From: Phycisphaerae bacterium | GTDB taxonomy: Bacteria > Planctomycetota > Phycisphaerae > UBA1845 > UTPLA1 | Reading direction: 5' to 3' | DNA length: 64,000 bases | Assembly (NCBI GenBank): GCA_019636475.1 | Contig: JAHBXN010000011.1 | Span: 1-64,000, forward strand | Shown here: positions 43,082-58,510 of the stretch, in pieces | Numbering within the stretch: position 1 is the first letter of the stretch | How the letters are laid out: every line of letters begins with the position of its first letter | Notes under the pieces: generated by a model | What the model saw: only the letters and a program-made list of their open reading frames with translations | Database searches by the model: none | Told to the model about the DNA's origin: nothing | Made by a program: the position numbers and the translations under genes

Positions 43082-43480
43082 ATGGTTCTGCGCGTGCTCA
43101 ATCTAGCGGTCGCCTGCTGGGCGCTTCATATCTCGCCCTCGTTGTGCTTGGCGGGCGTCCTGACTCACCCCTGCACTCCAACCACGAGCGGCACAATCGC
43201 AACCACCTGCTATGGTGATCAAGATCACGATCAGCCTAATTCCGATCCTGGGTCCTGCTCCCACGAGGACAACTGTAATTCCGATCCATGCCATGAGGGC
43301 CCGATCGTTAAGGAGGGCGGCGACCAGACGCTCGCTGTAGCGCCTTTGCTTCCGGTATTGCCTGGATTCAATACGACGGGAGTCTCGCTCGCACCGCTCG
43401 CTCCTTGGCACAACTCGGATGGCCCTCCCAATCGACCCCAATTGCCGCTCCATCAAAGTGACCTTCCCCTTCTGATCTGA
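43082..43480 (+). CDS. Secreted Cys-rich protein, SDLPLLI-ending family (copy 1)
   Basis: A 132-residue protein: signal peptide (LNLAVACWALHISPSLC), the core AGVLTHPC, then a Cys/His/Asp-rich middle (CYGDQDHDQPNSDPGSC, SHEDNCNSDPCHEGP), a Pro-rich linker and the ending PLHQSDLPLLI. It is paralogous to 55651-56061 at both ends (P-x-L-C-x-AGVL and SD[LV]PLLI). It precedes the outer-membrane factor of the first RND set by 33 bases, so it belongs to that operon. A periplasmic metal-binding or lipid-inserted role is inferred. No known family. Confidence 0.75.
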   Translation: MVLRVLNLAVACWALHISPSLCLAGVLTHPCTPTTSGTIATTCYGDQDHDQPNSDPGSCSHEDNCNSDPCHEGPIVKEGGDQTLAVAPLLPVLPGFNTTGVSLAPLAPWHNSDGPPNRPQLPLHQSDLPLLI

Positions 43481-43513
43481 TTCCCCAATTGACCAGCCGT
43501 TAATCGTTCGGCA

Positions 43514-45118
43514 TTGCCGAATGCGTTTTCGTATGCGCGTGCTTTTTCGCGCAGCTTCGTCAATTGGAGATTGATTATCTTGTGCCATGCAAGAGTCTAT
43601 TGCTGCCGAATTCTGCTTCTGTTCCCTGTCTTTGTGATCATGGGCTGCGCGACCGTAAACGCCCGACGCGATTACCAACGTGCAGGCTCTGAGGTCGCGC
43701 GCGCCATCGGCCAGGCTCCGCTTGAGAACCCGGAAGATCAGGCCATCGCCGACGCCGCAATCGCGGAGTTGATGACTGACGGGCTTACTGCCGACGAAGC
43801 CGTGAAGCTCGCGCTGCTCAACAATCCCAGAGCGCGGGCGGTCTTGCTGCAGGTCGGCATGGCGCGTGCGGACGTGGTTCAAGCCGGCCTCTGGTCGAAT
43901 CCGACTATCGGATTTTCGTTCAATCTGCCGACCGGGGGCGGATCTAATCAGTTCGGCATGAACCTGGCCCAAAACATTGCGGACCTGTGGATGATCCCAT
44001 CGCGCAGCCGTGCGGCAAATCAAGACTTGGAACGGATGACACTCAGCGCCGCTCAGGAGCTGGTCTCCTTGGCGGTGGACACGAAAGTTGCATACTTCAA
44101 CGCCCTGGCGGCTGATAGCGCACTTTCGATTGCGCAGGACAACGTGTCGCTGACGGAGGAGCTGCTTCGCATTACGAACGCTCGTCTGGAAGCGGGCACG
44201 GTCGGGTCACTCGATGTGAATCTCGCAAAGGGGCAGGCGCTTCGAGCCGAGGTCGATGCTCGATCGGCGCGATTGGAATCAGCAAGTTCACGCCGCACGC
44301 TGGCGGCGCTTCTGGGACTGACCACGTCGGCAAAAGAGATCTTGCTCAACGAGACGCTACCGATGCCTGTTGAGAGCGAACTGCCAGTAGACCGCTACGT
44401 GGCGACAGCGCTAGACTCGCGCCTTGATGCCCGCGCTGCTCGCGACGCGGTTGAGGCGGCTGCCGCCCGAGTCGAGCTTGAACTGGCGAGTGTCTTCAAG
44501 AACGTCGAGCTCGGATTCGAAGCGGAACACCAGGCACACCGGGCGCAGGGCGGGCGAAAGATTCTCGCCGATACGGCGAGATCGTCCATCGCAAACGGTC
44601 AACTCACCGCGCCCGAGATTCAATCGCGCGGCCAGCGAAATCTGGAAGATAGCCAGCGAATCGACGCCATTCTTGGCCCATCGCTGAGCTTGTCACTGCC
44701 CATTTTCGATCAGAACCAAGCGCAGATCGCCAAAGCCCGAATGAGCTACCTGGAAAGTAAGGCGATGCTGGAGGGCCTCGAACGGGGCATTGTGCAGGAT
44801 ACGCGCGAAGCTGCCGATCGCCTTGCGACTGCCTGGAACGTAGCGACCCTTTACCAGAATGAAGTCCTGCCACAAGCGCAGGAGACGCTCGATCTATCCC
44901 AGGCAACATATCAGGCGGGTCAGACCACGATTTTGAACGTCATCGATGCGCAGCGCTCGTTGCTGGAAACGCGTCGGGCGAACGTCGCAGCATTGCAGGC
45001 TGCGGCGAGCGCCATTGCTGAATTGGAACGGGCTACCGCACGTCCTGTGGATGAATTACTTGAACCGGCCGGGCCAACGACGCAGCCGACTGAAACGCAA
45101 CCTTCGGGCGAGGGATAA
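43514..45118 (+). CDS. Outer-membrane factor of a heavy-metal RND pump (CusC/CzcC-like)
   Basis: A 534-residue TolC-family lipoprotein. Lipobox at VFVIMGC, helical hairpins with LTADEAVKLALLNNPRARAV and the second repeat after ~300 (ATALDSRLDARAARDAVEAA), and the channel stretch YQAGQTTILNVIDAQRSLLE typical of the family. It forms the outer-membrane channel of a tripartite efflux complex with the adaptor (45363) and pump (48852). The TTG at 43514 is used here; the true start may be nearer the lipobox. No second outer-membrane gene is present for the later RND pair, so both systems may share it. Confidence 0.88.
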   Translation: MPNAFSYARAFSRSFVNWRLIILCHARVYCCRILLLFPVFVIMGCATVNARRDYQRAGSEVARAIGQAPLENPEDQAIADAAIAELMTDGLTADEAVKLALLNNPRARAVLLQVGMARADVVQAGLWSNPTIGFSFNLPTGGGSNQFGMNLAQNIADLWMIPSRSRAANQDLERMTLSAAQELVSLAVDTKVAYFNALAADSALSIAQDNVSLTEELLRITNARLEAGTVGSLDVNLAKGQALRAEVDARSARLESASSRRTLAALLGLTTSAKEILLNETLPMPVESELPVDRYVATALDSRLDARAARDAVEAAAARVELELASVFKNVELGFEAEHQAHRAQGGRKILADTARSSIANGQLTAPEIQSRGQRNLEDSQRIDAILGPSLSLSLPIFDQNQAQIAKARMSYLESKAMLEGLERGIVQDTREAADRLATAWNVATLYQNEVLPQAQETLDLSQATYQAGQTTILNVIDAQRSLLETRRANVAALQAAASAIAELERATARPVDELLEPAGPTTQPTETQPSGEG

Positions 45119-45121
45119 CAA

Positions 45122-45319
45122 ATGCTATTTCAAGAAACAAAACGGTCTGGCGCTTCCTTGCCGATTGCCATCTCTGCAATCGGAATATGCTTGGCGAGCG
45201 GTTGTCAAATGGATGACTCCGGCAGTGGCGACGCTAGTGCCATTGCAACCGTTGTCGCGTCGCTTGGTGAGTTTGCGGCGTCGTTTGCAAGAAACTTACT
45301 GGCCGCCTGGCTGCTTTGA
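45122..45319 (+). CDS. Small lipoprotein between channel and adaptor
   Basis: A 65-residue protein starting at ATG 45122, three bases after the channel gene. Signal with lipobox ISAIGICLASGC, then a short Asp/Ser stretch (QMDDSGSGD) and a hydrophobic C-terminal helix (FAASFARNLLAAWLL). The double anchoring suggests a small membrane-associated accessory of the efflux complex. Another frame through this region is a false extension of the adaptor gene. Confidence 0.65.
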   Translation: MLFQETKRSGASLPIAISAIGICLASGCQMDDSGSGDASAIATVVASLGEFAASFARNLLAAWLL

Positions 45320-45362
45320 GGGTTCAAAACCTACGACGGCTGGATTGCCGTGGAGAGGCGAT

Positions 45363-46700
45363 ATGCTTCGAATGACAACAATCGGACTGTTATCTCAATT
45401 TCTGGGACGTGGACGCAATGCAATTGCCTGGTGCGTCCTCATAGGAACTGTCCTTTGCGCGTGCCTGACCGCATGCCGCGATTCTGGGTCGAATTCGGGC
45501 TCGGCGGCGGAGTCGGTCGCCGCGGCCGAAAGCGGCGGGCACGACGGACACTATCACGGCGAGGAGGCGCACGTTGACGAAGTCACGCTGGCCCGTGACG
45601 CAATCGACCGCTACGGAATCAAGGTAGAGACGGCCTCATTGTATCGGCTTGGACCGAGTTTCGTGGCTCCAGCCAGAGTCGCGTTCAATGCGGAGGCGAT
45701 TGCGCATATCGGTTCCACGTTGCCCGGCCGCGTCGTGGAATTGGCGGTCCGCCTCGGCGACATAGTGACGAAGGGGGACTTGCTGCTGGTCGTGGAAAGT
45801 CCGCAACTGGGCGAGGCTCAAAGTGATTATCTTCAAAAACTGATCGCGGCCCAGACGACGATTGCGACCGTGGACTTGGCAAAGAATGCGTTAGACCGCG
45901 CACAGCGGCTCTACGATGAAAACCGTGGCATCGCGCTGGACGAAGTGCAAAAAAGAGAGGTCGAATTCAAGGTGGCCCAAGCATCGCTTCGCACCGCAGA
46001 GTCGACCGCGGTCGCGGCAGAAAACAAGCTTCATGTGCTCGGAATGACACAGGAGACGGTAACAGCGATTAAGGCATCCGGCGAGGTCAACCCGCGCTTT
46101 CCGATCGTGGCTCCGATTTCTGGTGAGGTGGTGGAGCGCGAAGTGACGCTTGGGGAGCTTGTCAGTCCCGAACGAGAAAAACTCCTCGTGCTGGCCAACA
46201 TCGATATCTTGTGGGTGCTGGCCGACGTGCCTGAGGCCCATTTGCCCGAACTTGCTCAGGGAGCCAAGGCGTGGATAAACGCTGGGAGCCTCGATCCACA
46301 TAAGCACGAAGGTCAAATCTCCTATGTCGCGCCCATGATCGACCCGCACACCCGGACGGTCTCGGTTCGCGTGGCGGTGGAGTGTGAGGATCGCTCACTG
46401 AAGCCGGGCATGTTTGTGCAGGTCGAGATTGCCTCGACCGACCGTAACAATCCAGATCCTGCCCCCGTTGTGGCGGTGCCGGACATCGCGGTTCAAACCG
46501 TCGAGGGCGAGACATCGGTGTTCGTTCCTGTGCCGGGCGAAGAGAACACCTTTGCAAGGCGCGCGGTCTCAGTCGGAAAGGCCGTGGCCGGCTTGGTGCC
46601 GGTTTACCGCGGCCTGGCCGAAGGTGAAGCGTACGTCGCATCCGGAAGCTTCCTCCTGAAGGCGGACCTCGGCAAGGCGACGGCAGAGCACGCGCATTAA
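45363..46700 (+). CDS. RND periplasmic adaptor (CusB/CzcB-like)
   Basis: A 445-residue membrane-fusion protein. Lipobox LTAC at ~38, then a His-rich metal-binding stretch (GGHDGHYHGEEAHVDE), barrel-sandwich halves (AHIGSTLPGRVVELAVRLGD, RFPIVAPISGEVVEREVTLG), a helical hairpin (DYLQKLIAAQTTIATVDLAK) and the beta-barrel/membrane-proximal domain (LWVLADVPEAHLPELAQGAK). ATG 45363 follows GGAGAGG; the longer frame upstream overlaps the lipoprotein gene. It links pump and channel and probably delivers metal to the pump. Confidence 0.9.
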   Translation: MLRMTTIGLLSQFLGRGRNAIAWCVLIGTVLCACLTACRDSGSNSGSAAESVAAAESGGHDGHYHGEEAHVDEVTLARDAIDRYGIKVETASLYRLGPSFVAPARVAFNAEAIAHIGSTLPGRVVELAVRLGDIVTKGDLLLVVESPQLGEAQSDYLQKLIAAQTTIATVDLAKNALDRAQRLYDENRGIALDEVQKREVEFKVAQASLRTAESTAVAAENKLHVLGMTQETVTAIKASGEVNPRFPIVAPISGEVVEREVTLGELVSPEREKLLVLANIDILWVLADVPEAHLPELAQGAKAWINAGSLDPHKHEGQISYVAPMIDPHTRTVSVRVAVECEDRSLKPGMFVQVEIASTDRNNPDPAPVVAVPDIAVQTVEGETSVFVPVPGEENTFARRAVSVGKAVAGLVPVYRGLAEGEAYVASGSFLLKADLGKATAEHAH

Positions 46701-47241
46701 GCGGTTTCGAGCGGGATATCGGCCAAGGGAAATCATATGAGCGCGAATTGCAGGCGATTGGTTGTCACCGGCTCCGCAGGGACGGGCCTGTTCGAAGTTG
46801 AACAGCGCGTACCGGCACGCGGACACGGATGGAAAGGTTCACCCCCTGGCGCGGAGCAGGCCCCGCCGAAGGGCGGCGCGCCGCGCCGTCGAGGGGAAAT
46901 GCGGCAGGCCGGGGCGGCTTGGGGCCGCCTCGGTGGCAGGTTTCCGCGCGGGGGCGTGGACCGCCGGTGTGTTGGTCCCAATCCGCCGCACCGCTCAGTG
47001 GCGCGCTCCCCCGTTGGAGCGGCGGGTCCGCTCCCCGGAGCGGGCGCTCGGCTCCAGGGGCGTGAACGTCCGGCCCCCGTCGCTCAGCGGCGGACGGTGC
47101 GAGCCGAACATTGGTGCAAGTTATTGCAAATGTGTAGGTTATGTCAGCTTTGGCCCGTCCGTCCGGAACGAGGCGCAGGGATGCACGGTGGCCGTCGGCC
47201 GCATGTCGGCCGGGCGCGACGGGCCGTTTGGAGGAACTGCA
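46701..47241. other. GC-rich non-coding segment splitting the adaptor and pump genes
   Basis: About 540 bases, very G+C-rich (46820-47140) with many short G and C runs. Several overlapping frames are open in it, but all are low-complexity (Pro/Gly/Arg) and look non-coding. The right end (47110-47140) is AT-richer and could hold the promoter of the following gene. With the next three genes it interrupts the usual adaptor-pump order. Confidence 0.5.
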
Positions 47242-47913
47242 ATGCCTGATTACATCCCCGGCGGGGACGCCGAATTCGGCACCTGGCTGGACAACTTCAT
47301 CGCCTATGCCAACGCCAACCTCACGGGACTTGGGCTGGTTGCGGGCGACCTGACGCCGGTGACCACGGCGCAGTCCGCGTGGAAAGCCGCCTACCCCGCG
47401 CATATTGCCGCGCAGCAGGCGGCGCTGGCGGCCCGGCAGGACAAGGACGCGGCCCGCGCCGGCGTCGAGGCTGCGGTTCGCCCGCTGGTGCGCCGGTTAC
47501 AGGCGAGCCCGGCGGTGGATGACGCCGAGCGGGCGTCGTTGGGGATCACCGTGCCTGATGCGGGCGCGACGCCGGTCGGCCCGCCGACGACGCGGCCGCT
47601 GGTGCTCGTCGAGTGCGGACAGCGGTTGCAGCACACCATCAACTTCCGGGATGAGGCCACGCCCACCCGCAAGGCCAAGCCCCCGGGTGTGCTGGGGGCT
47701 GAAATCTGGGTGAATGTCCTGCCCATCGGCTCGCCCACACCGGGCGACCCGGAGACATTCGGCTTCGTGGCACTGGACACCAAGACACCCTACACGCTGA
47801 ACTTCGACGCTGCCGATGGCGGGAAAAACGCGCATTACCTGGTGCGCTGGGTAAATTCGACCGGCCAAAAGGGACCGTGGAGCGAGACGGCCACGGCGAC
47901 GGTCGGAGCCTAG
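47242..47913 (+). CDS. Planctomycete-type hypothetical protein with FN3-like end
   Basis: A 223-residue protein (GGAGGAA site). N-terminal helical part (GTWLDNFIAYANANLTGLGL, VTTAQSAWKAAYPAHIAAQQ), an Arg/Ala-rich middle and a C-terminal strand-rich part (YTLNFDAADGGKNAHYLVRW, VNSTGQKGPWSETATATVGA) like a fibronectin-III fold. I recall this family as common and multi-copy in planctomycetes and related genomes; the function is unknown. No signal peptide. Confidence 0.75.
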   Translation: MPDYIPGGDAEFGTWLDNFIAYANANLTGLGLVAGDLTPVTTAQSAWKAAYPAHIAAQQAALAARQDKDAARAGVEAAVRPLVRRLQASPAVDDAERASLGITVPDAGATPVGPPTTRPLVLVECGQRLQHTINFRDEATPTRKAKPPGVLGAEIWVNVLPIGSPTPGDPETFGFVALDTKTPYTLNFDAADGGKNAHYLVRWVNSTGQKGPWSETATATVGA

Positions 47914-47940
47914 GGGCTTTTGCGGAAAGGCGAATGAGAC

Positions 47941-48225
47941 ATGCGGTCCATCGTGAGATTCTCCGTGGATGGCGAAACTGACGGGCAACTGCGCAACCGC
48001 CTGGCCGCGCTCTTGACCGATGCGGGATTCGTGCTCAACCCGCACGTTACCGCGACGTACGAGCACAACATGATCAACGAGCACGAATTGGCCGGCGTGA
48101 TGCAGCAGTTTTGGCAGCAGGCGATGAACCCGCCGAACGAGGCCCACGTGGACCATGTCTGGATGTACGCGGACAATCCGCCGGCCTTTCCGCTTCATTT
48201 CCCTGATACGGGAGACGAGCCATGA
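47941..48225 (+). CDS. Hypothetical protein
   Basis: A 94-residue soluble protein (IVRFSVDGETDGQLRNRLAA, LLTDAGFVLNPHVTATYEHN, NEHELAGVMQQFWQQAMNPP). Overlaps the next gene by four bases, so the two are co-translated. No known domain recognised. Confidence 0.65.
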   Translation: MRSIVRFSVDGETDGQLRNRLAALLTDAGFVLNPHVTATYEHNMINEHELAGVMQQFWQQAMNPPNEAHVDHVWMYADNPPAFPLHFPDTGDEP

Positions 48226-48836
48226 TTCTCGACTGGAATGAATGGCGGCACGGGAACCCCCGGCTCTTCTCCCTGATTGTGCTCGCGAAGCGGCATCGAA
48301 CGGTGGTCGGGGCGCTGCTGGTCGTAGGCGTTCTGATCGAGCATGTGATGACGCGGGCGGCGCCGGTCGACTTGCACCGGCCCTCCCTTCGGCAGGCCGG
48401 AGGGTTGATGTTGATTGCGATCGGTCTGGCGATCCGGCTCTTTGCGCTGGCCTCCATCCGCAAGAGGCGGGTGCTGGCCACCAGCGGCGCGTATTCCTTT
48501 TGCCGCCACCCGCTTTACTTGGGAACGGTGGCGATGGCGCTCGGTTTGTGCGTCCTTTTGTCGGACCTGAAGAGCTTCGTCCTGTTCGCAGTCTATTTCG
48601 CGCTGTTCTATCCGCTGACGATTCTGTGGGAGGAGTTCCGCCTCGCGGAGCGCTTCGGAAAGCGGCACGAGGAATATGCCCGCACGACGCCCCTTTTCCT
48701 GCCGTTCGGCAGGTTCCGACCCGGCACGTTGCTGTGGCCGCGCGCCGTGCGAAACGGCGCACTGGGATTGATCGGGATAACCGCGCTGCTGCTGGCGTGC
48801 ATCGAAGTCATGGCCGAGGTGATGTCGGCACATTAA
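48222..48836 (+). CDS. Isoprenylcysteine methyltransferase-like membrane protein
   Basis: A 204-residue protein of the ICMT/PEMT type. Several transmembrane helices, then the signature SGAYSFCRHPLYLGTVAMAL, GLCVLLSD and the acidic, basic end WEEFRLAERFGKRHEEYART typical of the SAM-binding C-terminus. Substrate unknown; it may methylate a lipid or membrane protein. It is placed between the adaptor and pump genes, a location seen for such genes in some metal islands. Confidence 0.8.
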   Translation: MILDWNEWRHGNPRLFSLIVLAKRHRTVVGALLVVGVLIEHVMTRAAPVDLHRPSLRQAGGLMLIAIGLAIRLFALASIRKRRVLATSGAYSFCRHPLYLGTVAMALGLCVLLSDLKSFVLFAVYFALFYPLTILWEEFRLAERFGKRHEEYARTTPLFLPFGRFRPGTLLWPRAVRNGALGLIGITALLLACIEVMAEVMSAH

Positions 48837-48851
48837 GGAGCGTCTTCCCTC

Positions 48852-51800
48852 ATGCTTGAAAAAGTCCTCCATTTTTCCATCCGCAACCGCTGGCTGGTCA
48901 TGCTGTTCACTATCATCATCGCTGCTATCGGCGTCAATTCGCTGATCAAGCTTCCGATCGATGCGGTGCCGGACATCACCAACAACCAGGTGCAAATCAA
49001 CACAGAGTATCCGGCGCTTTCGCCTGTTGAAATCGAGAAGCAGATCACGTTTCCGATCGAAGTGTCCTTCGCCGGAATCCCCGGCCTGCAATCAACGCGT
49101 TCACTGTCGCGCAATGGGTTCTCGCAGGTTACCGCGATCTTCGATGACGACGTGGACATCTACTTTGCCCGCCAGCAGGTGTTTGAACGGCTGAGTCAGG
49201 CGGGTGAGAGTCTTCCTCCGGGAGCAGAGCCGGTCATGGGGCCGATCGCGACCGGACTCGGCGAAGTTTACATGTACACCGTGGAGTATGAGCATCCTCA
49301 CGGAGAAGGCGCTCCGAAGACTGACGGAAAGCCTGGCTGGCAGAGTGACGGCTCTTACCTGACGCCGGAAAGTCGAAGTCTTCGTGGCGATGTCGAATTG
49401 GTGGCCTATCTCCGCGAGGTCCAGGACTGGCTGATCAGCATGCAGCTTCGCACGGTATCCGGTATTGCCGGCGTTGACTCCATCGGCGGCTATGTGAAAC
49501 AGTACCACGTCCAGCCCGATCCGATGAAGTTGGTGAGCTATGGCCTGACCTTTAGCGACGTGATCGAGGCGTTGGAGCGCAACAACATCAGCACCGGCGC
49601 GGGCTACATCGAGCACAAGGGAGAGATGTACATCGTCCGCGCTGCAGGACGAATCAACACGCTTGAGGAAATTGAGACTATTACGGTCGGTTCGCGAAAC
49701 GGCGTGCCCATCTACATCCGAGATATCGTCGTGCCGGGAGGCGTTCGAATTGGCCGCGAGTTGCGAACCGGGTCAGCGAGCGAAAATGGCGAGGAGATAG
49801 TCGTCGGCACGGCGATCATGCTCTTGGGGGAGAACAGCCGAACGGTCGCAGCCGCCGCAGATGCAAAACTGGCCGACATTCAACAAAGTCTGCCGCCTGG
49901 CATCCGCGCCAAGACCGTATTGAATCGTACCAAGCTGGTTGATGCTACGATTCGCACGGTTGAAAAGAACCTCGTTGAAGGCGCAATCCTGGTCATCGTG
50001 GTGCTGCTGCTCCTGCTCGGCAACTTTCGCGCGGCGCTGATCTGTGCCCTGGCGATACCCCTGTCGATGCTCTTTGCTGCCATCGGAATGGTGCAGACTA
50101 AGGTGAGCGGAAACCTGATGTCGCTTGGTGCCATTGACTTCGGTCTGATCGTCGATGGTGCTGTCATCATCGTGGAGAACTGCATCCGTCGGCTGGCGGA
50201 GGAACAGCACGCCAAAGGGCGCCTGCTGACGCTCCAAGAGCGACTTCACATCGTCTTCGAAGGCAGCAAACAGGTGCGTAGCGCAACCGCCTTCGGCGAG
50301 GCCATCATCACAGTTGTGTACGTGCCGATCCTCACACTGACGGGCATCGAAGGGAAGATGTTCCACCCGATGGCGCTGACCGTCATATTCGCCTTGGCCG
50401 GAGCATTCGTCTTGTCGTTGACTTTCGTGCCGGCAATGGTGGCGATTCTGGTGCGAGGCCGGGTGAAGGAAAAAGAAGTCTTCGTCATTCGGTGGGCAAA
50501 GGCAGCGTACGAGCCCGCAGTTCGTTGGGCGCTAAGGGCCCGTTGGGCGGTCGCAGGCGTTGCGGTTGTAATTTTCACCGCGTCGCTGGTCTTGTTCAAC
50601 ACGTTGGGACAGGAGTTCGTGCCCAGGCTGGATGAGAAGGATCTCGCGATGCATGCGCTTCGCATTCCAAGCACGTCTCTCACGCAATCACAGGAGATGC
50701 AGTTTGACGTTGAGCGTGTCGTCAGCGCATTTCCGGAGGTCGCTTTTCTTTATTCCAAAATCGGCACCGCAGAAATGGCGACAGACCCGATGCCGCAGAA
50801 CGTGGCGGACACCTTCGTCATTCTGAAGCCCGAAGAAGAATGGCGCAGCGAGGCTGAGTTGGACAAGCTGATTGCGGCGAAGACAGAGGAGATGGAGCGG
50901 ATAATGGGTCACGGCGAGGAGGAAGACGCCCACGGAAGTGATGAGGGTGGACACGATACAGTCGTAGCCATAGGCCATAAGGGCAAGTTGCTCAAGCTCA
51001 TCGAGCTGAGCGTCAAGGCCCTACCGGGCAACAACTACGAATTCACGCAGCCCATCGAAATGCGGTTCAACGAACTGATTGCCGGCGTGCGAGGCGACGT
51101 GGCGGTCAAGGTCTATGGCGATGACTTCGACGCGATGCGAAAGACCGCGGACCAAATACTGGCGGTGCTGCAGACGATTCCTGGCGCCGCGGATGCGAGA
51201 GTCGAACAAACAAGCGGCATGCCGGTCCTCACTGTGGAGATCGACCGGGCCGCGATCGCGCGCTACGGGCTCAATGTTGCCGATGTGCAAGACGTTGTGG
51301 CTGTCGCGATCGGTGGCCGAGAAGCGGGCCTGGTCTTCGAGGGCGACCGCCGATTCGACGTGATCGTTAGGCTCCCCGATTCGCTTCGCGCGCAACCGCA
51401 GACGCTCGAAAACCTGTGGATTCCTCTTCCAGCCCGCGAGGACGACTTCGAGGATGTTCGCGTCGCATCCGCTTCACAATTGACCGGAATCATGACGCCG
51501 CCGGCGCGCATGGGATTTATCCCACTTGGCGACGTTGCGAGAATCGACGTCACCGAGGGAACCAATCAAATCAGCCGCGAAAACGGCAAGCGGCGCGTCT
51601 TTGTGCAGTGCAATGTGCGCGGGCGCGACCTCGGTTCGTTCGTGGCAGAGGCACAGGCAAAGGTAAGGGCGATTTCGCAGCCGTCAGGTCAATGGATTGA
51701 TTGGGGCGGACAATTCGAAAACCTCGTTGCGGCCAAGCGCCGGCTGGCTGTGGTTGTGCCGATCTGCTTTCTGCTGATTTTCATTCTGCTATTCAGCACG

Positions 51801-52379
51801 TTCAAGAGCGCAAAGTATTCGCTTCTCGTCTTCAGCGCCGTACCGCTGGGACTCACCGGAGGTATTGCGTCGCTTTGGCTGCGCGACATGCCCTTCTCCA
51901 TTTCGGCAGCGGTCGGCTTTATTGCCTTGTCCGGCGTCGCGGTACTGAATGGTCTGGTTATGGTCACGTTCATCAACCAGCTTCGCCAGGAAGGCATGGC
52001 GCGTGATCAGGCCATTATTCACGGTTCATTGACCCGACTAAGACCAGTGCTCATGACCGCGCTCGTCGCGTCACTGGGGTTTGTGCCGATGGCACTAGCA
52101 ACCGGCACCGGCGCTGAAGTCCAACGTCCGCTTGCAACGGTCGTCATCGGAGGGCTTGTGACAAGCACGCTTCTTACGCTGCTCGTGCTTCCGGCGCTCT
52201 ATCGAATCTTCACTGGTTGGGATCCCAGCGGTGCGCCGAGTCCGGTTCCCCAAAAATGGGAGGAGCCCGACGCAAGGTCGCTGGAATCTCAACGGGAGTC
52301 GGATACTTCGGCTGCCGGACCGTCGTCCGAACAACCCAGAGAAGACGATGATTCGCGCGATTCAAACCGAACAGGTTGA
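48852..52379 (+). CDS. Heavy-metal RND efflux pump (CusA/CzcA-like) 1
   Basis: A 1175-residue HME-type RND protein. N-terminal PIDAVPDITNNQVQINTEYP, porter-domain motifs, the TM4 proton-relay pattern GAIDFGLIVDGAVIIVEN, FAIG/GVAVLNGLVMVTFIN near the C-terminus and RPLATVVIGGLVTSTLLTLL. Inserted after residue ~680 is a His-rich loop (GHGEEEDAHGSDEGGHDTVV), absent from the second pump. It exports divalent or monovalent metal from the periplasm through the adaptor and channel. Metal (Cu/Ag versus Zn/Co/Cd) is not decided by what I can see. Confidence 0.93.
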   Translation: MLEKVLHFSIRNRWLVMLFTIIIAAIGVNSLIKLPIDAVPDITNNQVQINTEYPALSPVEIEKQITFPIEVSFAGIPGLQSTRSLSRNGFSQVTAIFDDDVDIYFARQQVFERLSQAGESLPPGAEPVMGPIATGLGEVYMYTVEYEHPHGEGAPKTDGKPGWQSDGSYLTPESRSLRGDVELVAYLREVQDWLISMQLRTVSGIAGVDSIGGYVKQYHVQPDPMKLVSYGLTFSDVIEALERNNISTGAGYIEHKGEMYIVRAAGRINTLEEIETITVGSRNGVPIYIRDIVVPGGVRIGRELRTGSASENGEEIVVGTAIMLLGENSRTVAAAADAKLADIQQSLPPGIRAKTVLNRTKLVDATIRTVEKNLVEGAILVIVVLLLLLGNFRAALICALAIPLSMLFAAIGMVQTKVSGNLMSLGAIDFGLIVDGAVIIVENCIRRLAEEQHAKGRLLTLQERLHIVFEGSKQVRSATAFGEAIITVVYVPILTLTGIEGKMFHPMALTVIFALAGAFVLSLTFVPAMVAILVRGRVKEKEVFVIRWAKAAYEPAVRWALRARWAVAGVAVVIFTASLVLFNTLGQEFVPRLDEKDLAMHALRIPSTSLTQSQEMQFDVERVVSAFPEVAFLYSKIGTAEMATDPMPQNVADTFVILKPEEEWRSEAELDKLIAAKTEEMERIMGHGEEEDAHGSDEGGHDTVVAIGHKGKLLKLIELSVKALPGNNYEFTQPIEMRFNELIAGVRGDVAVKVYGDDFDAMRKTADQILAVLQTIPGAADARVEQTSGMPVLTVEIDRAAIARYGLNVADVQDVVAVAIGGREAGLVFEGDRRFDVIVRLPDSLRAQPQTLENLWIPLPAREDDFEDVRVASASQLTGIMTPPARMGFIPLGDVARIDVTEGTNQISRENGKRRVFVQCNVRGRDLGSFVAEAQAKVRAISQPSGQWIDWGGQFENLVAAKRRLAVVVPICFLLIFILLFSTFKSAKYSLLVFSAVPLGLTGGIASLWLRDMPFSISAAVGFIALSGVAVLNGLVMVTFINQLRQEGMARDQAIIHGSLTRLRPVLMTALVASLGFVPMALATGTGAEVQRPLATVVIGGLVTSTLLTLLVLPALYRIFTGWDPSGAPSPVPQKWEEPDARSLESQRESDTSAAGPSSEQPREDDDSRDSNRTG

Positions 52380-52445
52380 GGCGGGTGCGACGGTGTACTT
52401 GCCAAGCATTGTTGTTCATGTGGCACTTTGCCAAGGAGACAAGTC

Positions 52446-52730
52446 ATGCGAAATGTAAGTCTGAAGAGCGTTGCTGTAGGTCTGTTTCTGGGCGTTGGCT
52501 TGACTGCCTGCGCTGCCAATCTTTTTGCGCAGCCCGGAACCGCCCAGCCGGTCAAGAGTGAAACGCAGTACTTCGTGACCGGCGAGGGGGATGATGCTCA
52601 TCTGTGGGTCCGCGAGGGAACCAAGCTTCGCTGTGTCGGACACGGCGAATGCAAGACTCACGGCGACCACAAGGGACATGATGACGATCACGCTGGCCAC
52701 GATCATGACAAGGAAAAAGCGAAACCGTAG
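52446..52730 (+). CDS. Periplasmic His-rich protein
   Basis: A 94-residue protein (AAGGAGACA site, ATG 52446). Signal peptide (SVAVGLFLGVGLTACAANLF), a small strand-rich core (YFVTGEGDDAHLWVREGTKL, one Cys pair CVGHGEC) and the tail HGDHKGHDDDHAGHDHDKEK. Likely a periplasmic metal buffer for the RND pump. Overlaps the following gene by 26 bases. Confidence 0.75.
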   Translation: MRNVSLKSVAVGLFLGVGLTACAANLFAQPGTAQPVKSETQYFVTGEGDDAHLWVREGTKLRCVGHGECKTHGDHKGHDDDHAGHDHDKEKAKP

Positions 52731-52992
52731 GCGCCGGCGAGGCGGGAGCCAAAGCGCACGGCGTTCGCCGAAACCGCCGAGCGTACGCAGCATGGTGGCA
52801 TGGACGATTCCCTTCGTGGTACTCGCCGTGCTCGTCGACTGGCTTCTGTACCACGACATGGCCAGTCATCGCGCGAAGTATGGCCATTGGTACTTCCCTC
52901 TTCAGGGAATCGTAATGGCGGTGTTCGTCACGATATCGGCGATCTCATTTCCGATTGTGTGGTGTCACCTGCGGCGAAAGGGCGCGAAATGA
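52705..52992 (+). CDS. Two-span membrane protein of the efflux operon
   Basis: A 95-residue protein from ATG 52705: a very basic N-terminus (MTRKKRNRRRRRGGSQSARR) followed by two hydrophobic helices (AWTIPFVVLAVLVDWLLY and LQGIVMAVFVTISAISFPIV). A start further upstream is possible, but the frame overlaps the His-rich gene. Function unknown; placement suggests an accessory of the pump operon. Confidence 0.6.
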   Translation: MTRKKRNRRRRRGGSQSARRSPKPPSVRSMVAWTIPFVVLAVLVDWLLYHDMASHRAKYGHWYFPLQGIVMAVFVTISAISFPIVWCHLRRKGAK

Positions 52993-53453
52993 CGGCGGAA
53001 CGATGCGCGATGATATTTCGGGTCATCGGAATCTTGGTGTCGGTAGCTGGCGCAGCATTTATTACTGGGTGTGCGCCCGGTCGAGTAGATCTATTCGATT
53101 CCGGCGCGCTCCGACTGGAAAAGGTTCCCGACGAACGCGGACATTACCGCGACATACACGCCTACCGAACGGACGACGGAATCTCGGTAGTTGGATACGT
53201 TCGTCGTTCATCGCGGCCCGCTCACGTTCATGTGCGGATCGACAATGCCACGGGACAAACACTCGCCGAAACCAAGGCAAGTGTACGCCGAGTTCCGCGA
53301 AGCGCCCGACGCGTTCGCCACGCGCGTTTTGAGGCTGTTTTTCCTGTGCAGGCATCTGACGGTTTCATCGTACGAATTCGGCATCATGTCGGTAGATGCG
53401 TTGATACCGACCCCGAGCAATCGATAGTGCCAACTGATCGGGATGGAGCTTGA
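52989..53453 (+). CDS. Lipoprotein of the efflux operon
   Basis: A 154-residue lipoprotein starting MTAERCAMIFRVIGILVSVA with lipobox AAFITGC. The mature part reads like a small strand-rich domain (YRDIHAYRTDDGISVVGYVR, HVHVRIDNATGQTLAETKAS). It overlaps the membrane-protein gene by four bases and the ATPase start by four. Its target is unknown, perhaps metal or the efflux complex. Confidence 0.65.
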   Translation: MTAERCAMIFRVIGILVSVAGAAFITGCAPGRVDLFDSGALRLEKVPDERGHYRDIHAYRTDDGISVVGYVRRSSRPAHVHVRIDNATGQTLAETKASVRRVPRSARRVRHARFEAVFPVQASDGFIVRIRHHVGRCVDTDPEQSIVPTDRDGA

Positions 53454-55648
53454 AAGTGGCCAAAACGTCCACGCAATTCCGCGTAGCAGGCATGGACTGC
53501 CCCGACGAAATCGCGGAGCTGCAGCAATGCCTGGCTGTGGATGGTGTCGATGACCTGTCGTTCAATCTGATGCAGTCGTCCATGACGGTTGAACATGATC
53601 CCGCCCGAATCGACGTGGACGAGATCATCCGACGGGTTCGGACTACGGGCATGAAGGCATCGGTCTTGGAGGACTCATCTACGGGGCCGAATGACGCGCG
53701 AGCTCCGTCTCCCAAGGGCCCGTTCTGGATGGCTGTGACTTCCGCCGCCGCAGCGGCCATCGGCGCTGCGTTGTCGTTGTTTCCCGCAAGTATGATTCTT
53801 CATGCCCCGTGGCCGGCGGCGATAGCATACACACTCGCCATCGCCGCTGCCTGGCGTTTTGTTCTGCCCAAGGCATGGTCTTCGCTGCGTCGGCTACGCC
53901 TCGACATGAATGTGCTGATGACAGTGGCGGTCATCGGCGCGGTCGGACTCGGTGAGTGGCTCGAAGGTGCAGCCGTCGCTGTTCTCTTTGCTATTTCCCA
54001 CCTGCTGGAAACATGGAGCGTCAACCGCGCGCGACGTGCAATCCAATCCCTCATGGAACTCAGTCCGGAACGGGCCCGAGTGTTGCAAGAGGATGGATCG
54101 GAGCGCGAACTCGCGGTTGAGGACGTAGAGGTTGGGAGCCGAATCGTCATCCGTCCGGGTGAAAAGTTTCCGCTTGATGGCGAAGTCGTGGAAGGCGAAA
54201 CGACGGTCAATCAAGCCCCAATCACCGGCGAATCAGCTCCGGTTGACAAGGCGCCTGGTGACGAGGTCTTCGCCGGTACCGTAAACCAGGACGGCGCCGT
54301 CACCGTCAGGGTCACCAAAGCTGCCGGCGACACTGTGCTAGCAGGCGTTATTCGTCTGGTCGAGCAGGCTCAGTCTCGCCGTTCTCGATCCGAGCAGTTC
54401 GTCGAGACGTTCGCTCGGTATTACACACCGGCCGTCGTCATCGGCGCCGTACTATTGTGCATCGTGCCGCCTCTGTTTTTCGGCGCAGCATGGTCGGCGT
54501 GGTTCTACCGCGCACTCGTTTTGCTGGTCATCGCATGCCCCTGCGCCCTGGTCATTTCGACGCCCGTTTCGGTCGTGAGCGGCTTGGCCGCCGCCGCCCG
54601 AAACGGCGTGCTCATCAAAGGAGGCGAATTCCTGGAAGCCGTCGGCCGGACTCGCGTGATCGCCATCGACAAGACAGGGACGCTGACGCACGGCAAACCG
54701 GTCGTTCAAGAGGTAATACCGCTCGGCGATGCCACGGAGCAGGGGTTGTTGGAACTCGCAGCCGCGATCGAGCAACGCAGTGAACACTCGATCGCGCGGG
54801 CCATCGTCGATTTCGCCAACGAACGAGGAATCTCGCCGCCGCCTTGCCACGATTATCAGGCTATTCGCGGTAAGGGTGCACAGGCGACCGTGGACGGCAC
54901 TCGTCACTTCCTCGGCAACCATCGCTTACTCGAAGAGAAAAACGTCTGCACCGACGAGATTCATCGAGTGATGACCGAGCATGAGGATTGCAATCACACG
55001 GTCGTCGGCATCGCGTCGGAAAAGCGTCCTCTCGGTGTCATCCTTCTCGCCGACGGCTTGCGCGAGGAAGCCCCGGAGGCTATACAGTCTCTGCGTCGCG
55101 ACGGCATTGAACGCGTCATCATGCTGACGGGGGACAACACTGGAACGGCCGAAGCGATCGCCAAGGAATGCGGCGGAATTGAACCGCGCGGCGAGCTACT
55201 CCCGGCGGACAAGGTCAAGGCCGTCGAAGCGCTCCGACACTCGCACGAGCACGTACTCATGGTTGGCGACGGAATCAACGATGCGCCGGCACTGGCGGCC
55301 GCGAGCGTCGGCATCGCGATGGGCGTCGGGGGCACCGACGCCGCCTTGGAAACTGCCGACATCGCCCTGATGACCGACGACCTACGCAAGCTCCCCTGGC
55401 TCTTGCGCCACAGCCGTCGCACGCGCCGCGTGATCATGCAGAACATCGCCCTTTCCTTGGGCATCAAGGCGGTATTCCTGGTACTCGCGGTCCCCGGGCT
55501 GGCAAACCTCTGGATGGCCATCGCGGCCGATATGGGTGCTTCGCTGTTGGTTACGGCAAACGGCCTACGGCTGCTTCGATCTGGGTTCCGGGAGGGGGCG
55601 GCATTATCGACCGGCATTCGACGGGCGTCGGGTCAGAGGGTAGAATAG
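53450..55648 (+). CDS. P1B-type heavy-metal ATPase (Zn/Cd/Pb-like)
   Basis: A 732-residue metal-exporting ATPase. An N-terminal HMA-like domain is present (~8-70), but its metal motif is GMDCPDE rather than GMxCxxC. CPCALVIS is the transmembrane metal-site motif; DKTGTLTHGKP carries the phosphorylated Asp; MLTGDNTG, GDGINDAPALAAASVGIAMG the hinge. The last helices have AADMGASLLVTANGLRLL, whose Asp-x-Gly is typical of Zn/Cd/Pb (P1B-2, ZntA/CadA-like). Metal choice is inference. The TTG start at 53450 overlaps the lipoprotein stop; a GTG follows at 53456. It empties the cytoplasm into the periplasm, where the RND pumps act. Confidence 0.92.
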   Translation: MKVAKTSTQFRVAGMDCPDEIAELQQCLAVDGVDDLSFNLMQSSMTVEHDPARIDVDEIIRRVRTTGMKASVLEDSSTGPNDARAPSPKGPFWMAVTSAAAAAIGAALSLFPASMILHAPWPAAIAYTLAIAAAWRFVLPKAWSSLRRLRLDMNVLMTVAVIGAVGLGEWLEGAAVAVLFAISHLLETWSVNRARRAIQSLMELSPERARVLQEDGSERELAVEDVEVGSRIVIRPGEKFPLDGEVVEGETTVNQAPITGESAPVDKAPGDEVFAGTVNQDGAVTVRVTKAAGDTVLAGVIRLVEQAQSRRSRSEQFVETFARYYTPAVVIGAVLLCIVPPLFFGAAWSAWFYRALVLLVIACPCALVISTPVSVVSGLAAAARNGVLIKGGEFLEAVGRTRVIAIDKTGTLTHGKPVVQEVIPLGDATEQGLLELAAAIEQRSEHSIARAIVDFANERGISPPPCHDYQAIRGKGAQATVDGTRHFLGNHRLLEEKNVCTDEIHRVMTEHEDCNHTVVGIASEKRPLGVILLADGLREEAPEAIQSLRRDGIERVIMLTGDNTGTAEAIAKECGGIEPRGELLPADKVKAVEALRHSHEHVLMVGDGINDAPALAAASVGIAMGVGGTDAALETADIALMTDDLRKLPWLLRHSRRTRRVIMQNIALSLGIKAVFLVLAVPGLANLWMAIAADMGASLLVTANGLRLLRSGFREGAALSTGIRRASGQRVE

Positions 55649-55650
55649 AC

Positions 55651-56061
55651 GTGATGATTCGAGGAGCGGTCAGACTGTTGATGGCGTGCCTGCTGGTTGG
55701 TCCGCCTGCGCTCTGCAAGGCGGGCGTGCTTGTCGCCTGCTGCGATCACGAGTCCCTTCGGGCAAGTAACGATGAGCCCTTGGGGTCGGCTTGCTGTACC
55801 GATGTGGAGGATGGCTGCAACACAGACACGACGGTACCGGATTCAACTCCTCGAAAATGTGAGGCGTGCGCAGGTATCTGCGCTGGAGCGGTCAAACCGT
55901 CTGACGAGTCCAAAGCCGCCGCACTTGACGCCCAACCGGCCATCCTCGTGGTCATCGTCATCAACTCAATGGCCTGTCCGAGGATTCGCCCTGATTCCCT
56001 TCACTCCTTGCCAGGTTCCAGACTGCCCTTCCCAGTATCCGACGTTCCACTGCTGATCTGA
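55651..56061 (+). CDS. Secreted Cys-rich protein, SDVPLLI-ending family (copy 2)
   Basis: A 136-residue protein starting at GTG 55651 or ATG 55654 just after the ATPase. Signal peptide (RLLMACLLVGPPALC), AGVLVACC, Cys-rich middle (GSACCTDVEDGC, RKCEACAGICAG), then ILVVIVINSM and the ending PFPVSDVPLLI. It shares with 43082-43480 the pattern ACxLxxxPxLCxAGVLxxxC and the C-terminal SD[LV]PLLI, with little else alike. It precedes the second RND adaptor by 130 bases. Probable periplasmic or membrane-associated metal-binding protein; the family appears undescribed. Confidence 0.75.
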   Translation: MMIRGAVRLLMACLLVGPPALCKAGVLVACCDHESLRASNDEPLGSACCTDVEDGCNTDTTVPDSTPRKCEACAGICAGAVKPSDESKAAALDAQPAILVVIVINSMACPRIRPDSLHSLPGSRLPFPVSDVPLLI

Positions 56062-56191
56062 TCTCCGTTAACAATTTCGATGCCCTCATTGACCGCGCGC
56101 CCAATCGGTGTACGCGGAGCTGTTTGTTGATAGCGCAATCAGGTGCGAAGTTCAGCAACTGGAAACGAATCCCATTGTCAGGAGATCATCA

Positions 56192-58510
56192 ATGCAAGAA
56201 AGACGTTGGATGTCGATAGTGATCGCTTGCGCGATCGTTGCGTGCTTCTCATCGGTCGGCTGCGAAAAAAAAGCGGACAGCGGATCTGGCGGACCCACAA
56301 GCTCATCAGGCGACGACGGCTCTGGTACGTCCAATGGCCCTGCTGCCAGCGCCCTAGCCCCCACCCTTGACAAGGGCTGGTGTAGCGGGCATGGCGTGCC
56401 GGAATCCGTCTGTACTCGGTGCAACGCATCGCTCATTCCGCAATTCAAGGACGCCAGCGATTGGTGCGCGGAACACAATCTTCCTGAGTCGCAGTGCACA
56501 ATCTGCCGCCCGGAGATCAAGGCGGAATGGGCCAAGCTCGATCCTGCGAACGCGGCCAAGGAGAAAGCCGGAGCCGCCTCCGTGTCCGAGAGCGGGACGA
56601 GTTCCCTCGGTCCTGCTTCCAGCCCGATCGAGCCGACGCTCGATAAGGGCTGGTGCGGCGGACACGGTGTACCGGAGTCGGTCTGCACGCGGTGCAATTC
56701 GTCATTGATTGCCGCGTTTAAGGAGGCGAGTGACTGGTGCGAGGAGCACGGACTACCTGAGTCGCAGTGTGTGTCCTGTCACCCGGAAGTCGAGGCGGAA
56801 TGGCACAAGCTCAATCCCGCAGCCTCTAACCAGGATCAACACGGCGATTCGAGAAGCATGGGCAACACGCCTGACGATGACGAATCGCGCTTCGCTGGAA
56901 AGTGGTGCTCGGAGCACGGGGTTCCCGAGTCCGTTTGCACCCGATGCAATTCGGCCCTGATCGCCGGTTTCAAGGGCGCCAACGACTGGTGCGGTGAACA
57001 TGGGCTGCCGGAGACTCAATGCACGATCTGCAATCCGCAGGTGCGCGAGAAATGGGCGGCCATGCGGCCGGCGGCGACCAACGTGATTGACGACAAACTT
57101 AAGGGAATCCTGTTGGAGCGCTCGCCTCGAATCCTGACAGGCGCGAGCGATCCCTTGTGCCAGGTCGATACGCTTCGCGTGACCTTTCTTGATCCCAGTA
57201 TCGTCCGGAAGGCGGGAATCACGGTTGAAAGAGTTGGACGGCGAACGATGTCTGCGACGATTGATGTCCCTGCTGAGATCGAGTTCGACGCGACTCGTAT
57301 GACTCGCGTGACGCCGTTGGTGTCCGGAGTGATCCGGGAAGTTCCCGTAGAACTTGGTAGCAACGTGAACGTCGGTGATCGACTGGTCGTCATCGACAGC
57401 CCCAGCCTCGGAGAGGCCAAGAGCGAGTACATCGAACGCGCCCAGAATCTCAAGCTGGCAAAGGCGGACCTCGAACGCGTCGGCACGATTTATGAAGGGA
57501 CGCGGCGAATGCTCGATGTATGCACGGCGGACGCGCAGCCCGTCCAGATTCGCGAGGCACTCGATAAATCGCCGGTGGGCGACGCGAAGGCGAAGCTGCT
57601 GCGGGCTCATGCTGCGCTGCAATTGGCGAAGTCGGAAGCCGCACGAGCGGAGACGCTTCAGCAAAAGAAGATCAACAGCGAGCGGGATTATCAGGCCGCC
57701 CAAAGCGCGCTTGCGGCTGCCGAAGCTGATTTTGTCGCCATACGTGAGGAGGTCGGCTTTAACGTCGATCAGGCGCGGCTGTCTGCGGAACGCGGGGTTG
57801 AAATAACCCGGACTGCTTTGGAGTCCGCCGAGCGCCGGCTGCACATCCTGGGTTTGAATCAGGATCAGATCGCCAAGATTGGAAGCGAGCCGCACGAATC
57901 GCTTTCTCGCTTCGAGCTGAGAAGTCCCGCTTCCGGGCGCGTCGTCGATCGCGCCGTGTCCGTCGGCGAGTCGGTAGAAGCAGATAACGTGCTCTTTGTT
58001 GTGGTTGACACCTCGGAGATGTGGCTCATGGCCGATGTGTACGAGCGCGACCTGCGTCAACTGCGGGTCGGACTGCCAGTACAGTTCATCGTGGACAGCA
58101 TGTCGGGCGCCAACTTTGAGGGAAAGGTCGCCTGGATCAGTAGCCAAGTGAGCGATCGCACGCGAACCGTTCGCCTTCGGGCAAGCCTGCCGAATCCTGA
58201 AGGCCTGCTCCGCGCCAAGATGTTCGGACAAGCGAGAATTGTCCTCCATGACAACGAGCATGTGGTAGGAGTTCCCGTCGATGCCGTCCAGACCGACGGA
58301 TGTTGTCAGCTCGTGTTCGTCGAGGAATCTGAAACGGTCTTTCAGCCTCGCAAGGTCGTGCTAGGCGCCCGCGCCAACGGATTCGTGGAGATTCTCAACG
58401 GCCTGAAGGAGGGCGAAGCCATTGCCAGCATCGGCAGTTTCTTGATGAAGACGGAGATCCTCAAGGGCAGCATCGGCGCTGGGTGTTGCGAAGTCGAACC
58501 AGGAAGGTGA
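56192..58510 (+). CDS. RND adaptor with six Cys/His finger modules
   Basis: A 772-residue CusB-like adaptor (TCAGGAG site, ATG 56192). Lipobox SVGC (~24). Residues ~61-115, ~152-206 and ~236-290 are three copies of a double module: WCxxHGVPESVCTRCN then WCxEHxLPE[ST]QCxxC, each with C-x2-H and C-x2-C spacing, separated by Ser/Ala/Asp linkers. The fusion-protein body follows (~330-770): TRMTRVTPLVSGVIREVPVE, a helical hairpin and RSPASGRVVDRAVSVGESV, then DVYERDLRQLRVGLPVQF. The tail is also Cys-bearing (QTDGCCQL, GAGCCEVEPGR). The modules could pick up metal in the periplasm and pass it to the pump; no transfer has been shown. Confidence 0.88.
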   Translation: MQERRWMSIVIACAIVACFSSVGCEKKADSGSGGPTSSSGDDGSGTSNGPAASALAPTLDKGWCSGHGVPESVCTRCNASLIPQFKDASDWCAEHNLPESQCTICRPEIKAEWAKLDPANAAKEKAGAASVSESGTSSLGPASSPIEPTLDKGWCGGHGVPESVCTRCNSSLIAAFKEASDWCEEHGLPESQCVSCHPEVEAEWHKLNPAASNQDQHGDSRSMGNTPDDDESRFAGKWCSEHGVPESVCTRCNSALIAGFKGANDWCGEHGLPETQCTICNPQVREKWAAMRPAATNVIDDKLKGILLERSPRILTGASDPLCQVDTLRVTFLDPSIVRKAGITVERVGRRTMSATIDVPAEIEFDATRMTRVTPLVSGVIREVPVELGSNVNVGDRLVVIDSPSLGEAKSEYIERAQNLKLAKADLERVGTIYEGTRRMLDVCTADAQPVQIREALDKSPVGDAKAKLLRAHAALQLAKSEAARAETLQQKKINSERDYQAAQSALAAAEADFVAIREEVGFNVDQARLSAERGVEITRTALESAERRLHILGLNQDQIAKIGSEPHESLSRFELRSPASGRVVDRAVSVGESVEADNVLFVVVDTSEMWLMADVYERDLRQLRVGLPVQFIVDSMSGANFEGKVAWISSQVSDRTRTVRLRASLPNPEGLLRAKMFGQARIVLHDNEHVVGVPVDAVQTDGCCQLVFVEESETVFQPRKVVLGARANGFVEILNGLKEGEAIASIGSFLMKTEILKGSIGAGCCEVEPGR

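Follow-up and report, generated by a model that had tools for sequence, protein, structure and literature searches.

A 64,000-nucleotide stretch of DNA from a Phycisphaerae bacterium (assembly GCA_019636475.1, contig JAHBXN010000011.1, positions 1 to 64,000; hereafter the window) carries on its forward strand two small cysteine-rich open reading frames (ORFs), each of which is the first gene ahead of a resistance-nodulation-division (RND) gene set. An earlier note on this DNA had placed the pair at 43082-43480 and 55651-56061 and had pointed to the RND genes behind each; both ORFs are present at these positions and both are followed by such genes, in the order TolC-membrane-fusion protein (MFP)-CusA/CzcA for the first and MFP-CzcA for the second. 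Protein 1 (43082..43480, 132 aa, stop codon TGA at 43478-43480) is organized as HPC ... CSHEDNCNSDPC ... SDLPLLI, an arrangement that we call type A. Protein 2 (55654..56061, 135 aa from an ATG, stop codon TGA at 56059-56061; an alternative GTG start at 55651 gives 136 aa) reads ACC ... CC ... CEACAGIC ... SDVPLLI and represents type B. Both have a hydrophobic N-terminus and a Cys-rich middle. The SD[LV]PLLI ending previously noticed is found in both (QSDLPLLI and VSDVPLLI), as is the shared core AGVL (PSLC.AGVL and PALC.AGVL); the proposed N-terminal pattern ACxLxxxPxLC is only loosely respected (ACWALHISPSLC and ACLLVGPPALC).

Downstream of protein 1 lie a gene for a TolC-family outer-membrane factor (43580..45118, open frame from 43514), an open frame containing an RND MFP (44946..46700, its true start being probably further downstream) and, 2.1 kb beyond the MFP frame, a CusA/CzcA heavy-metal RND pump (48852..52379) with the transmembrane segment 4 (TM4) signature DFGLIVDGAV. 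The TolC start, TTG 43580, was inferred by eye from the Shine-Dalgarno (SD) sequence and the lipoprotein signal, whereas our script picked TTG 43571. Protein 2 precedes an MFP with three N-terminal Cys-rich repeats (56192..58510, open frame 56108-58510) and a CzcA-type heavy-metal RND pump (58517..61591, TM4 signature DFGLIVDSSV). A third, divergent copy, ending CVPLLI, is encoded on the minus strand of contig 6 of the same genome (G000:C6:302228-302623); it precedes a CzcA-like gene whose score (692.7 bits) falls just below our cut-off.

The two proteins are not an isolated pair but members of an unnamed bacterial family. Compared directly, they resemble each other weakly and in the N-terminal half only (BLASTP E 0.001), but a profile of 14 type A sequences matched protein 2 along almost its entire length (E 3.8e-6); types A and B are therefore homologous, and their resemblance is not due to chance. 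Searches of 61 genomes with each single protein returned relatives within the same family or order. With the type A profile and a second one of 9 type B sequences, at least 55 and at least 47, respectively, of 114 genomes of the order were matched at E <=0.001; among 392 genomes sampled across the phylum, that of the window included, the figures were at least 9 and at least 3. These numbers are lower bounds, at most 10 candidates having been scored per genome in the phylum sample, and 37 and 36 in the order. From planctomycete genomes we extracted 98 members, 97 of them distinct (one duplicate), and 12 further members were found afterwards. In a scan of named genomes, a 7-sequence alignment identified 6 loci among 33 candidate stretches, while protein 2 alone found no relative among 53. 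The six come from metagenome-assembled genomes (MAGs) labelled Phycisphaerae (four), Planctomycetaceae (one) and Nevskiales (one). The Nevskiales-labelled MAG carries a close type A protein of 115 aa ending AELPLLI (WYBE01000031.1, 8001-8348), reflecting either gene transfer or mis-binning.

The earlier note knew no named family with these features, and model scans bear this out. The window proteins matched no Pfam or NCBIfam family at E <=10, and among the 98 members the best NCBIfam match had E 0.086 and Pfam matches were at 0.02 or worse, apart from a single DUF2946 (PF11162) match at E 3.4e-4. The other 97 had no DUF2946 match at E <=1, and a rescan of ten members for DUF2946 did not include the matching one. 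HYC_CC_PP (NF047658) was absent from the families matched by any of the 98 members at E <=1; the window's own genome has one 11.5-bit match to it, elsewhere. On the strength of these scans, we rejected an assignment to DUF2946, HYC_CC_PP or other named families. No relative was found among solved structures at E <=1, and in titles and abstracts of the open-licence literature we found nothing on the P-L-L-I tail or on such leaders in planctomycetes.

Members are 104-154 aa long (median 126, three above 150) and contain a median of 9 Cys and 4 His. The conservation that had been claimed for the two ends holds across the family, and a Cys/His motif is conserved as well. A hydrophobic start with a Pro-x-Leu-Cys-type motif, signal-like by that motif, is present in 95/97 members, and in 94/97 an HxC, CC or EC occurs no more than 12 residues further on. 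A lipoprotein signal was considered and rejected by eye: unlike the adaptor lipoproteins of the window, Pro-x-Leu-Cys has no small residue before the Cys. The Cys beside the presumed signal-peptidase site (C22 of protein 1) does not vary across the 98 aligned members, which could mean that it contributes to metal binding or that the signal remains uncleaved. Next comes a metal-type motif, CSHESDCxSDPC in type A and CxxC..C in type B, and putative metal binding by this Cys/His-rich middle is plausible.

What follows the motif varies in sequence but not in length. With motifs located by regular expressions (xDPC, else the last CxxC; two of 98 had neither and were left unclassed), the last motif Cys lies a median of 63 residues from the C-terminus in type A and 66 in type B, with a median absolute deviation (MAD) of 1 in each. 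The distance is 59-71 residues in 58 of the 61 type A proteins and 61-68 in 34 of the 35 of type B, the outliers being three type A proteins at 77, 84 and 107 and one type B protein at 82. The spacing from the signal Cys to the motif is variable (MAD 8 in type A, 4 in type B). Among the 21 type A proteins with exactly 63 residues, mean identity is 0.157 over the 50 residues past the motif as opposed to 0.534 over the last 12. Since its length is fixed while its sequence is loose, the linker looks like a ruler. The later-found leaders agree, with a distance of 56-66 residues in the 10 of 12 that have CFC, CIC or CxxC (two of them, L239 and L241, matched two Cys motifs, and CFC was taken).

The tail is the best conserved part. 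Counting back from the last residue as position 0, Pro occupies -3 in 95/97 members, Leu -2 in 92/97, Pro -10 in 75/97, Ser -6 in 70/97, Asp -5 in 67/97 and Ile position 0 in 70/97; position -1 is Leu in 78, Arg in 14 and Gln in 3 of 97. Tails of the form P-L-x-[IVL] end 82/97 proteins, and P-L-L-I runs up to the stop codon. All four proline codons are used at -3 (CCC 29, CCT 23, CCG 22, CCA 21), and the tail is thus selected as a peptide. Such a free C-terminus could belong to a stable periplasmic accessory of the pump, acting as metallochaperone or sensor in the manner of CusF or CzcI, with its P-L-x-[I/V/L] end docking on a partner such as the RND complex or a PDZ protease, which is the view of the earlier note. 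PDZ domains follow a hydrophobic-x-hydrophobic rule for C-terminal ligands, and the tail shows that pattern, with position -1 varying more than -2 and Ile, Val or Leu at position 0 in 88/97; the signal-like N-terminus, the wealth of Cys and His and the strict linkage to RND genes described below also suit an accessory. We nevertheless consider this explanation rather unlikely. It does not account for a weakly conserved linker that nonetheless keeps its length, and an invariant C22 by the presumed signal-peptidase site would be odd in a discarded signal peptide. In addition, AlphaFold predicts no fold past an N-terminal helix, which we count against a secreted protein with a recognized C-terminus: the model of protein 1 (8 sequences) has a mean predicted local distance difference test score of 53.3 and a single helix at residues 2-23, so that a folded C-terminal domain was rejected, although the alignment was shallow and the evidence is weak.

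The genomic context of the family is strict. Using the TolC, MFP and CzcA proteins of the window as tblastn queries, we detected at least one of these genes downstream on the same strand in 97/98 members, most commonly in the orders TolC-MFP-CzcA or MFP-CzcA. The sole exception, L214, could not be judged, as its contig ends 486 nt past the gene, and no member has another kind of gene downstream, so the co-occurrence check proposed in the earlier note comes out in favour of linkage. Homologs lacking the ending, homologs lacking the RND context and a match to a characterized family, which that note listed as counter-evidence, were all sought among the members: the context holds throughout the judgeable loci, the ending in most members, and the only family match is the single graze with DUF2946. 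The first detected gene has its called start 39-302 nt away in 75/94 loci (90-146 nt in 58/94) and more than 302 nt away in 19/94, where a divergent TolC gene probably intervenes.

Conversely, a profile-detected leader stands at 35 of the 89 CzcA places scoring over the cut-off among the matches listed for 61 genomes, places being single matches, with split matches excluded and at most 10 candidates scored per genome. Of the 54 leaderless places, 20 upstream regions were inspected, and 11 hold a leader missed by the profiles: eight with a CFC motif and ending LPLLI or FPLLI, one of type B, and two His-rich ones ending SLLI. The remaining nine yielded no leader; five showed none, and four were stretches of less than 3 kb. 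Because the missed leaders were found with regular expressions asking for the tail or the signal motif, other matches being set aside by eye, their tails are not independent evidence; their motif-to-end distance, stop codon and stem are. The family is thus broader than the two profiles, and its leaders were found at part of these pumps. The two His-rich proteins, ending SNSLLI or NHSLLI, are the first proteins of loci L230 and L231, whose CzcA scores (1653 and 1649 bits) are the top ones among the matches listed; a region after their stop can pair with the SD sequence, and they possibly represent a further leader type.

Leader type goes along with pump class. The TM4 signature, unreadable in 26/97 loci, is DG in 34, DS in 4 and DD in 8 pumps after type A leaders, and DS in 24 and DG in 1 after type B leaders. 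We take the DG/DS split to separate Zn/Co/Cd-type from Co/Ni-type pumps, following the classes of heavy-metal efflux pumps, and an AIG subgroup among the type A loci to be of the Cu/Ag kind. Since operons are inherited together, this link is an association and not proof of sensing.

The family also shows a strong preference for one stop codon. Leaders terminate with TGA in 90/97 cases, compared with 253/475 among open frames of at least 350 codons of the same loci (p 5e-15), some of which may not be genes; 11 of the 12 later-found leaders do the same. Among the genes downstream, TGA ends 44/79 CzcA, 22/84 MFP and 37/47 TolC frames. The base directly after TGA is T in 78/90 leaders versus 57/255 controls. 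The resulting TGATTCC or TGATCCC is mirrored by many SD sequences of the next gene, GGAATC or GGGATC, and pairing between stop and SD is a likely reason for the TGA/T bias.

Both loci of the window are predicted to form such a stem. In stem 1, CCAATTGAC (43485..43493), starting 4 nt past the stop, pairs with GTCAATTGG (43559-43567; 43559..43569 with the SD), which overlaps the likely SD of the TolC gene (GGAG, 43566-43569, assigned by eye); the stop codon itself is unpaired in the minimum-energy fold. In stem 2, the 5' arm TGATCTCC (56059..56066) includes the stop codon and pairs with GGAGATCA (56181..56188), which includes the SD of the MFP gene. Fold z-scores are -2.69 and -1.95, with 1/200 and 5/200 shuffles folding as well, and at the leader 2 locus the probability that the SD is paired with the stop region is 0.81 against 0.11 in shuffles.

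For the family, RNA tests were run on the loci with a called intergenic region of 60-240 nt (73 of the 94 with a called start) plus the 12 later-found ones; 3 of these 85 have no recognizable SD, among them leader 1 of the window because the script had taken TTG 43571 as the TolC start, and 82 remain. On average, the SD pairs with the stop region with a probability of 0.453, as opposed to 0.143 once the bodies are shuffled (n = 82, p 9e-8); the later-found 12 give 0.584 versus 0.145. When arms were swapped between loci, own arms paired better: none of 20000 permutations reached the observed value for the 73 loci and 11/20000 did for the later-found 12. The G+C contents of the two arms are correlated (0.54), and the effect survived GC-matched swapping (7/20000, 73 loci). 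In the loci with a located CzcA start it was present for the SD of the next gene (11/20000) and absent when the CzcA SD from that operon was used instead (5636/20000). No own-arm effect was seen with a stretch inside the next gene (10295/20000), and it was nearly absent with the intergenic stretch before the SD (1634/20000). Of the 41 loci with a run of at least 7 bp, 27 include a base of the stop codon. Taken over the whole intergenic region, folding energy shows only a modest difference to coding controls (mean z -0.67, n = 73, versus -0.17, n = 71; p 0.007). In our reading, a conserved anti-SD strand lies at the stop codon, with locus-specific extra pairing in part of the loci.

These data bear on two explanations. 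A stable periplasmic accessory would leave both the TGA/TGAT bias and the covariation between the stop region and the next SD unexplained. The suggestion that the C-terminus is recognized by something finds no support in its simple, secreted form, as the fixed distance from motif to stop, the TGA bias and the stop:SD pairing favour a ribosome reading the tail while the protein is made. Plain translational coupling, in which termination on a short first gene is enough to open the SD stem and set the level of pump expression, with no metal-dependent arrest, has in its favour that a stem whose 5' arm sits at the stop codon would suffice by itself; we judge it improbable, since it leaves the conserved tail, the Cys/His motif and the fixed distance between them without an explanation.

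The family, its linkage to pump genes, the tail, the ruler, the stop bias and the group-level pairing signal, all established above, are in our opinion best accounted for, with moderate confidence, if the leaders are cis-acting exported upstream ORF (uORF) peptides that sense metal during their synthesis and switch the pump genes on. The ribosome would then probably read the leader as a metal gauge rather than produce an ordinary secreted protein. The signal sequence would steer the nascent chain into SecYEG. With the ribosome at TGA, the Cys/His motif would be ~63 residues from the peptidyl-transferase centre; after a tunnel of ~30 residues and a membrane span of ~17 (PMC9973294), that spacing places the motif outside the membrane, already in the periplasm. 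The conserved tail, L-P-x-P-x-S-D-x-P-L-L-I, may slow termination at TGA, and metal at the motif would decide whether the ribosome stays or leaves. The stop-codon region would be one strand of a stem masking the SD of the first pump gene, which in most cases lies 90-146 nt further on, a step supported statistically for the group and not for each locus. While a ribosome waits at the stop codon, it would occupy or obstruct the 5' arm; the SD would become accessible, and TolC or MFP, then the pump, would be translated. As to the direction of control, metal-promoted pausing is likelier for an efflux pump. With the opposite sign, metal would end the pause and a terminator, Rho or another, would act between the genes; CruR is reported to operate in this way, also with a fixed motif spacing (PMC9426467), and the typical length of the called intergenic regions would accommodate it; as metal-induced shut-off makes little sense for efflux pumps, we hold it to be very improbable.

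Several observations weigh against a metal-gauging leader. Within the linker, some positions right after the motif are conserved, up to 0.57, and the tail bears no resemblance to poly-Pro or RAPP arrest motifs. Measured against TolC stops, the TGA bias is weaker (p 0.025), and it could stem from RNA pairing rather than from arrest. As for the stem, runs of at least 7 bp are modestly above expectation (41/85 versus 33.0; 395/20000), the excess being unclear in either set alone (1341 and 4167 of 20000), and its probability reaches 0.5 in only 40 of 82 loci, the other 42 falling below. The stop region pairs equally well with the CzcA SD (-11.5) and the next-gene SD (-11.3, n = 62), with energies <=-12 in 27 and 28 loci, respectively. 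Occupancy of the SD core is not above that of swapped arms (36/82 versus 40.0 expected), presumably owing to conservation of both arms, and a control window shifted by -40 gives a weak signal (101/20000). Downstream start codons were picked by a heuristic, and related loci are not independent in the pairing tests. Finally, export, metal binding, arrest and the direction of control are steps that we infer.

The closest parallels are two copper-responsive leaders. For CutF of Rhodobacter capsulatus, copper-dependent output of the next protein is reported to need the signal sequence, a Cys motif, a C-terminal motif and a stem covering the SD, CutF itself being rapidly degraded, and RND outer-membrane factors are the commonest neighbours of CutF-like proteins (PMC9973294). 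The present family likewise consists of small exported-type proteins that combine a Cys metal motif with a conserved motif at the C-terminus and are encoded ahead of metal genes, and a stem over the next SD is predicted, with support for the group and not for each locus. It differs from the published description in its P-L-L-I tail at the stop instead of a PP motif, in the spacing, with ~63 residues between motif and last residue whereas 45 separate the motif of CutF from its C-terminal motif, and in a 5' arm at or just past the stop codon (PMC9973294). Put to the CutF-like criteria, the members show the signal-like N-terminus, the Cys/His motif and the metal-gene context, and we counted their size as within the limit of up to 150 aa; the PP tail is what most members lack, the published filter (PP within 15 residues of the end; PMC9973294) being passed by 24/97 members and, by eye, by neither window protein. 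On the stem over the SD, the significant group signal and the folds of both window loci stand beside the 42 of 82 loci below 0.5 and the controls lacking an excess. By description alone, the family also resembles CzcI of Cupriavidus metallidurans, a small protein whose gene precedes czcCBA and for which a role as metal-sensing regulator has been suggested (PMC9973294).

CruR, of the DUF2946 family, is reported to sense copper via a CXXC at a fixed 45-residue distance from RAPP (PMC9426467). Like the present leaders, it is a first-gene uORF whose metal motif keeps a set spacing to a conserved C-terminal motif; it differs from them in having CXXC and RAPP, a signal peptide reported as dispensable and Rho-dependent termination (PMC9426467). 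The family does not show CXXC and RAPP ~45 residues apart, having P-L-x-[IVL] tails and a longer spacing. It seems to work like CutF and CruR and yet is, by test, not part of DUF2946. The few DUF2946 homologs mentioned for Planctomycetes (PMC9426467) are the other family, which we found at other places of the same planctomycete genomes, in 23/61 at E <=0.01 and in 3/61 over the cut-off. Twelve of the 24 listed matches were inspected: CxxC lies 44-49 residues from RxPP in 12/12, and the stops are TAA in 7, TGA in 3 and TAG in 2. These proteins have the same kind of ruler with other values. The window's own genome has a DUF2946-like protein (G000:C3:475857-476081; 21.3 bits, below cut-off) with CQTC and a C-terminal RAPP, judged by its motifs a candidate CruR-like leader alongside the new family. 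Leaders that stall with a stop codon in the A site are known, such as uA_NSP-stop among the Sec/YidC arrest peptides, and Planctomycetota have a uA_LPPP class; the same source describes arrest itself as not yet demonstrated for CutF or CruR (PMC10987492). Like uA_NSP-stop, the present tail ends at the stop, upstream of the gene served; unlike that leader of protein-export genes, it is combined with a Cys/His motif and a heavy-metal pump (PMC10987492).

Other features of the window deserve mention. The repeats of the second MFP (56192-57200; WC..HG.PES.CTRCN ... WC.EHGLPE.QC..C, three times) lie outside the Pfam matches and are possibly a metal-binding extension. Between the MFP and CzcA genes of the first operon, 46700-48850 is G+C-rich (66% in 46001-48000) and holds an ORF with no Pfam match (46762-47913) and one that is membrane methyltransferase-like by eye (48222-48836). 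A 1907-aa protein (37236-42959) with ResIII, SNF2 and Helicase_C matches and a weak N6-methylase match terminates just ahead of leader 1 and looks like a mobile-element helicase/methylase. A small exported-looking protein at 62182-62553, with two RPDCPG.I.CP.TG..VC.D.CP repeats, a C-terminal CC and no Pfam match, is flanked by a MerR-like ORF (by eye) and a zf_CopZ/MerT/HMA protein (62599-63771).

With evenly balanced confidence, we propose that these leaders form a new stop-codon arrest class, P-L-L-I-UGA, common in one order of Planctomycetota, which would read periplasmic divalent metals through a Cys/His motif ~63 residues from the active centre; the stop region would be both arrest site and anti-SD strand, and the motif types (HESDCxxDPC, CxxC..C, CFC) would be tuned to the metals of the pumps. 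Metal sensing by nascent exported proteins has so far been described for copper, with CutF and CruR (PMC9973294, PMC9426467). A family in a separate phylum, with its own tail, ruler length, preferred stop and several pump metal signatures, would mean that this sensing mode has more than one sequence solution. The tail, the distance, the stop codon and the stem can be altered separately, which makes for a clean test system. If the proposal is true, one short gene would convert metal binding outside the membrane into pump synthesis, and a function would be assigned to ~110 unannotated first-gene proteins.

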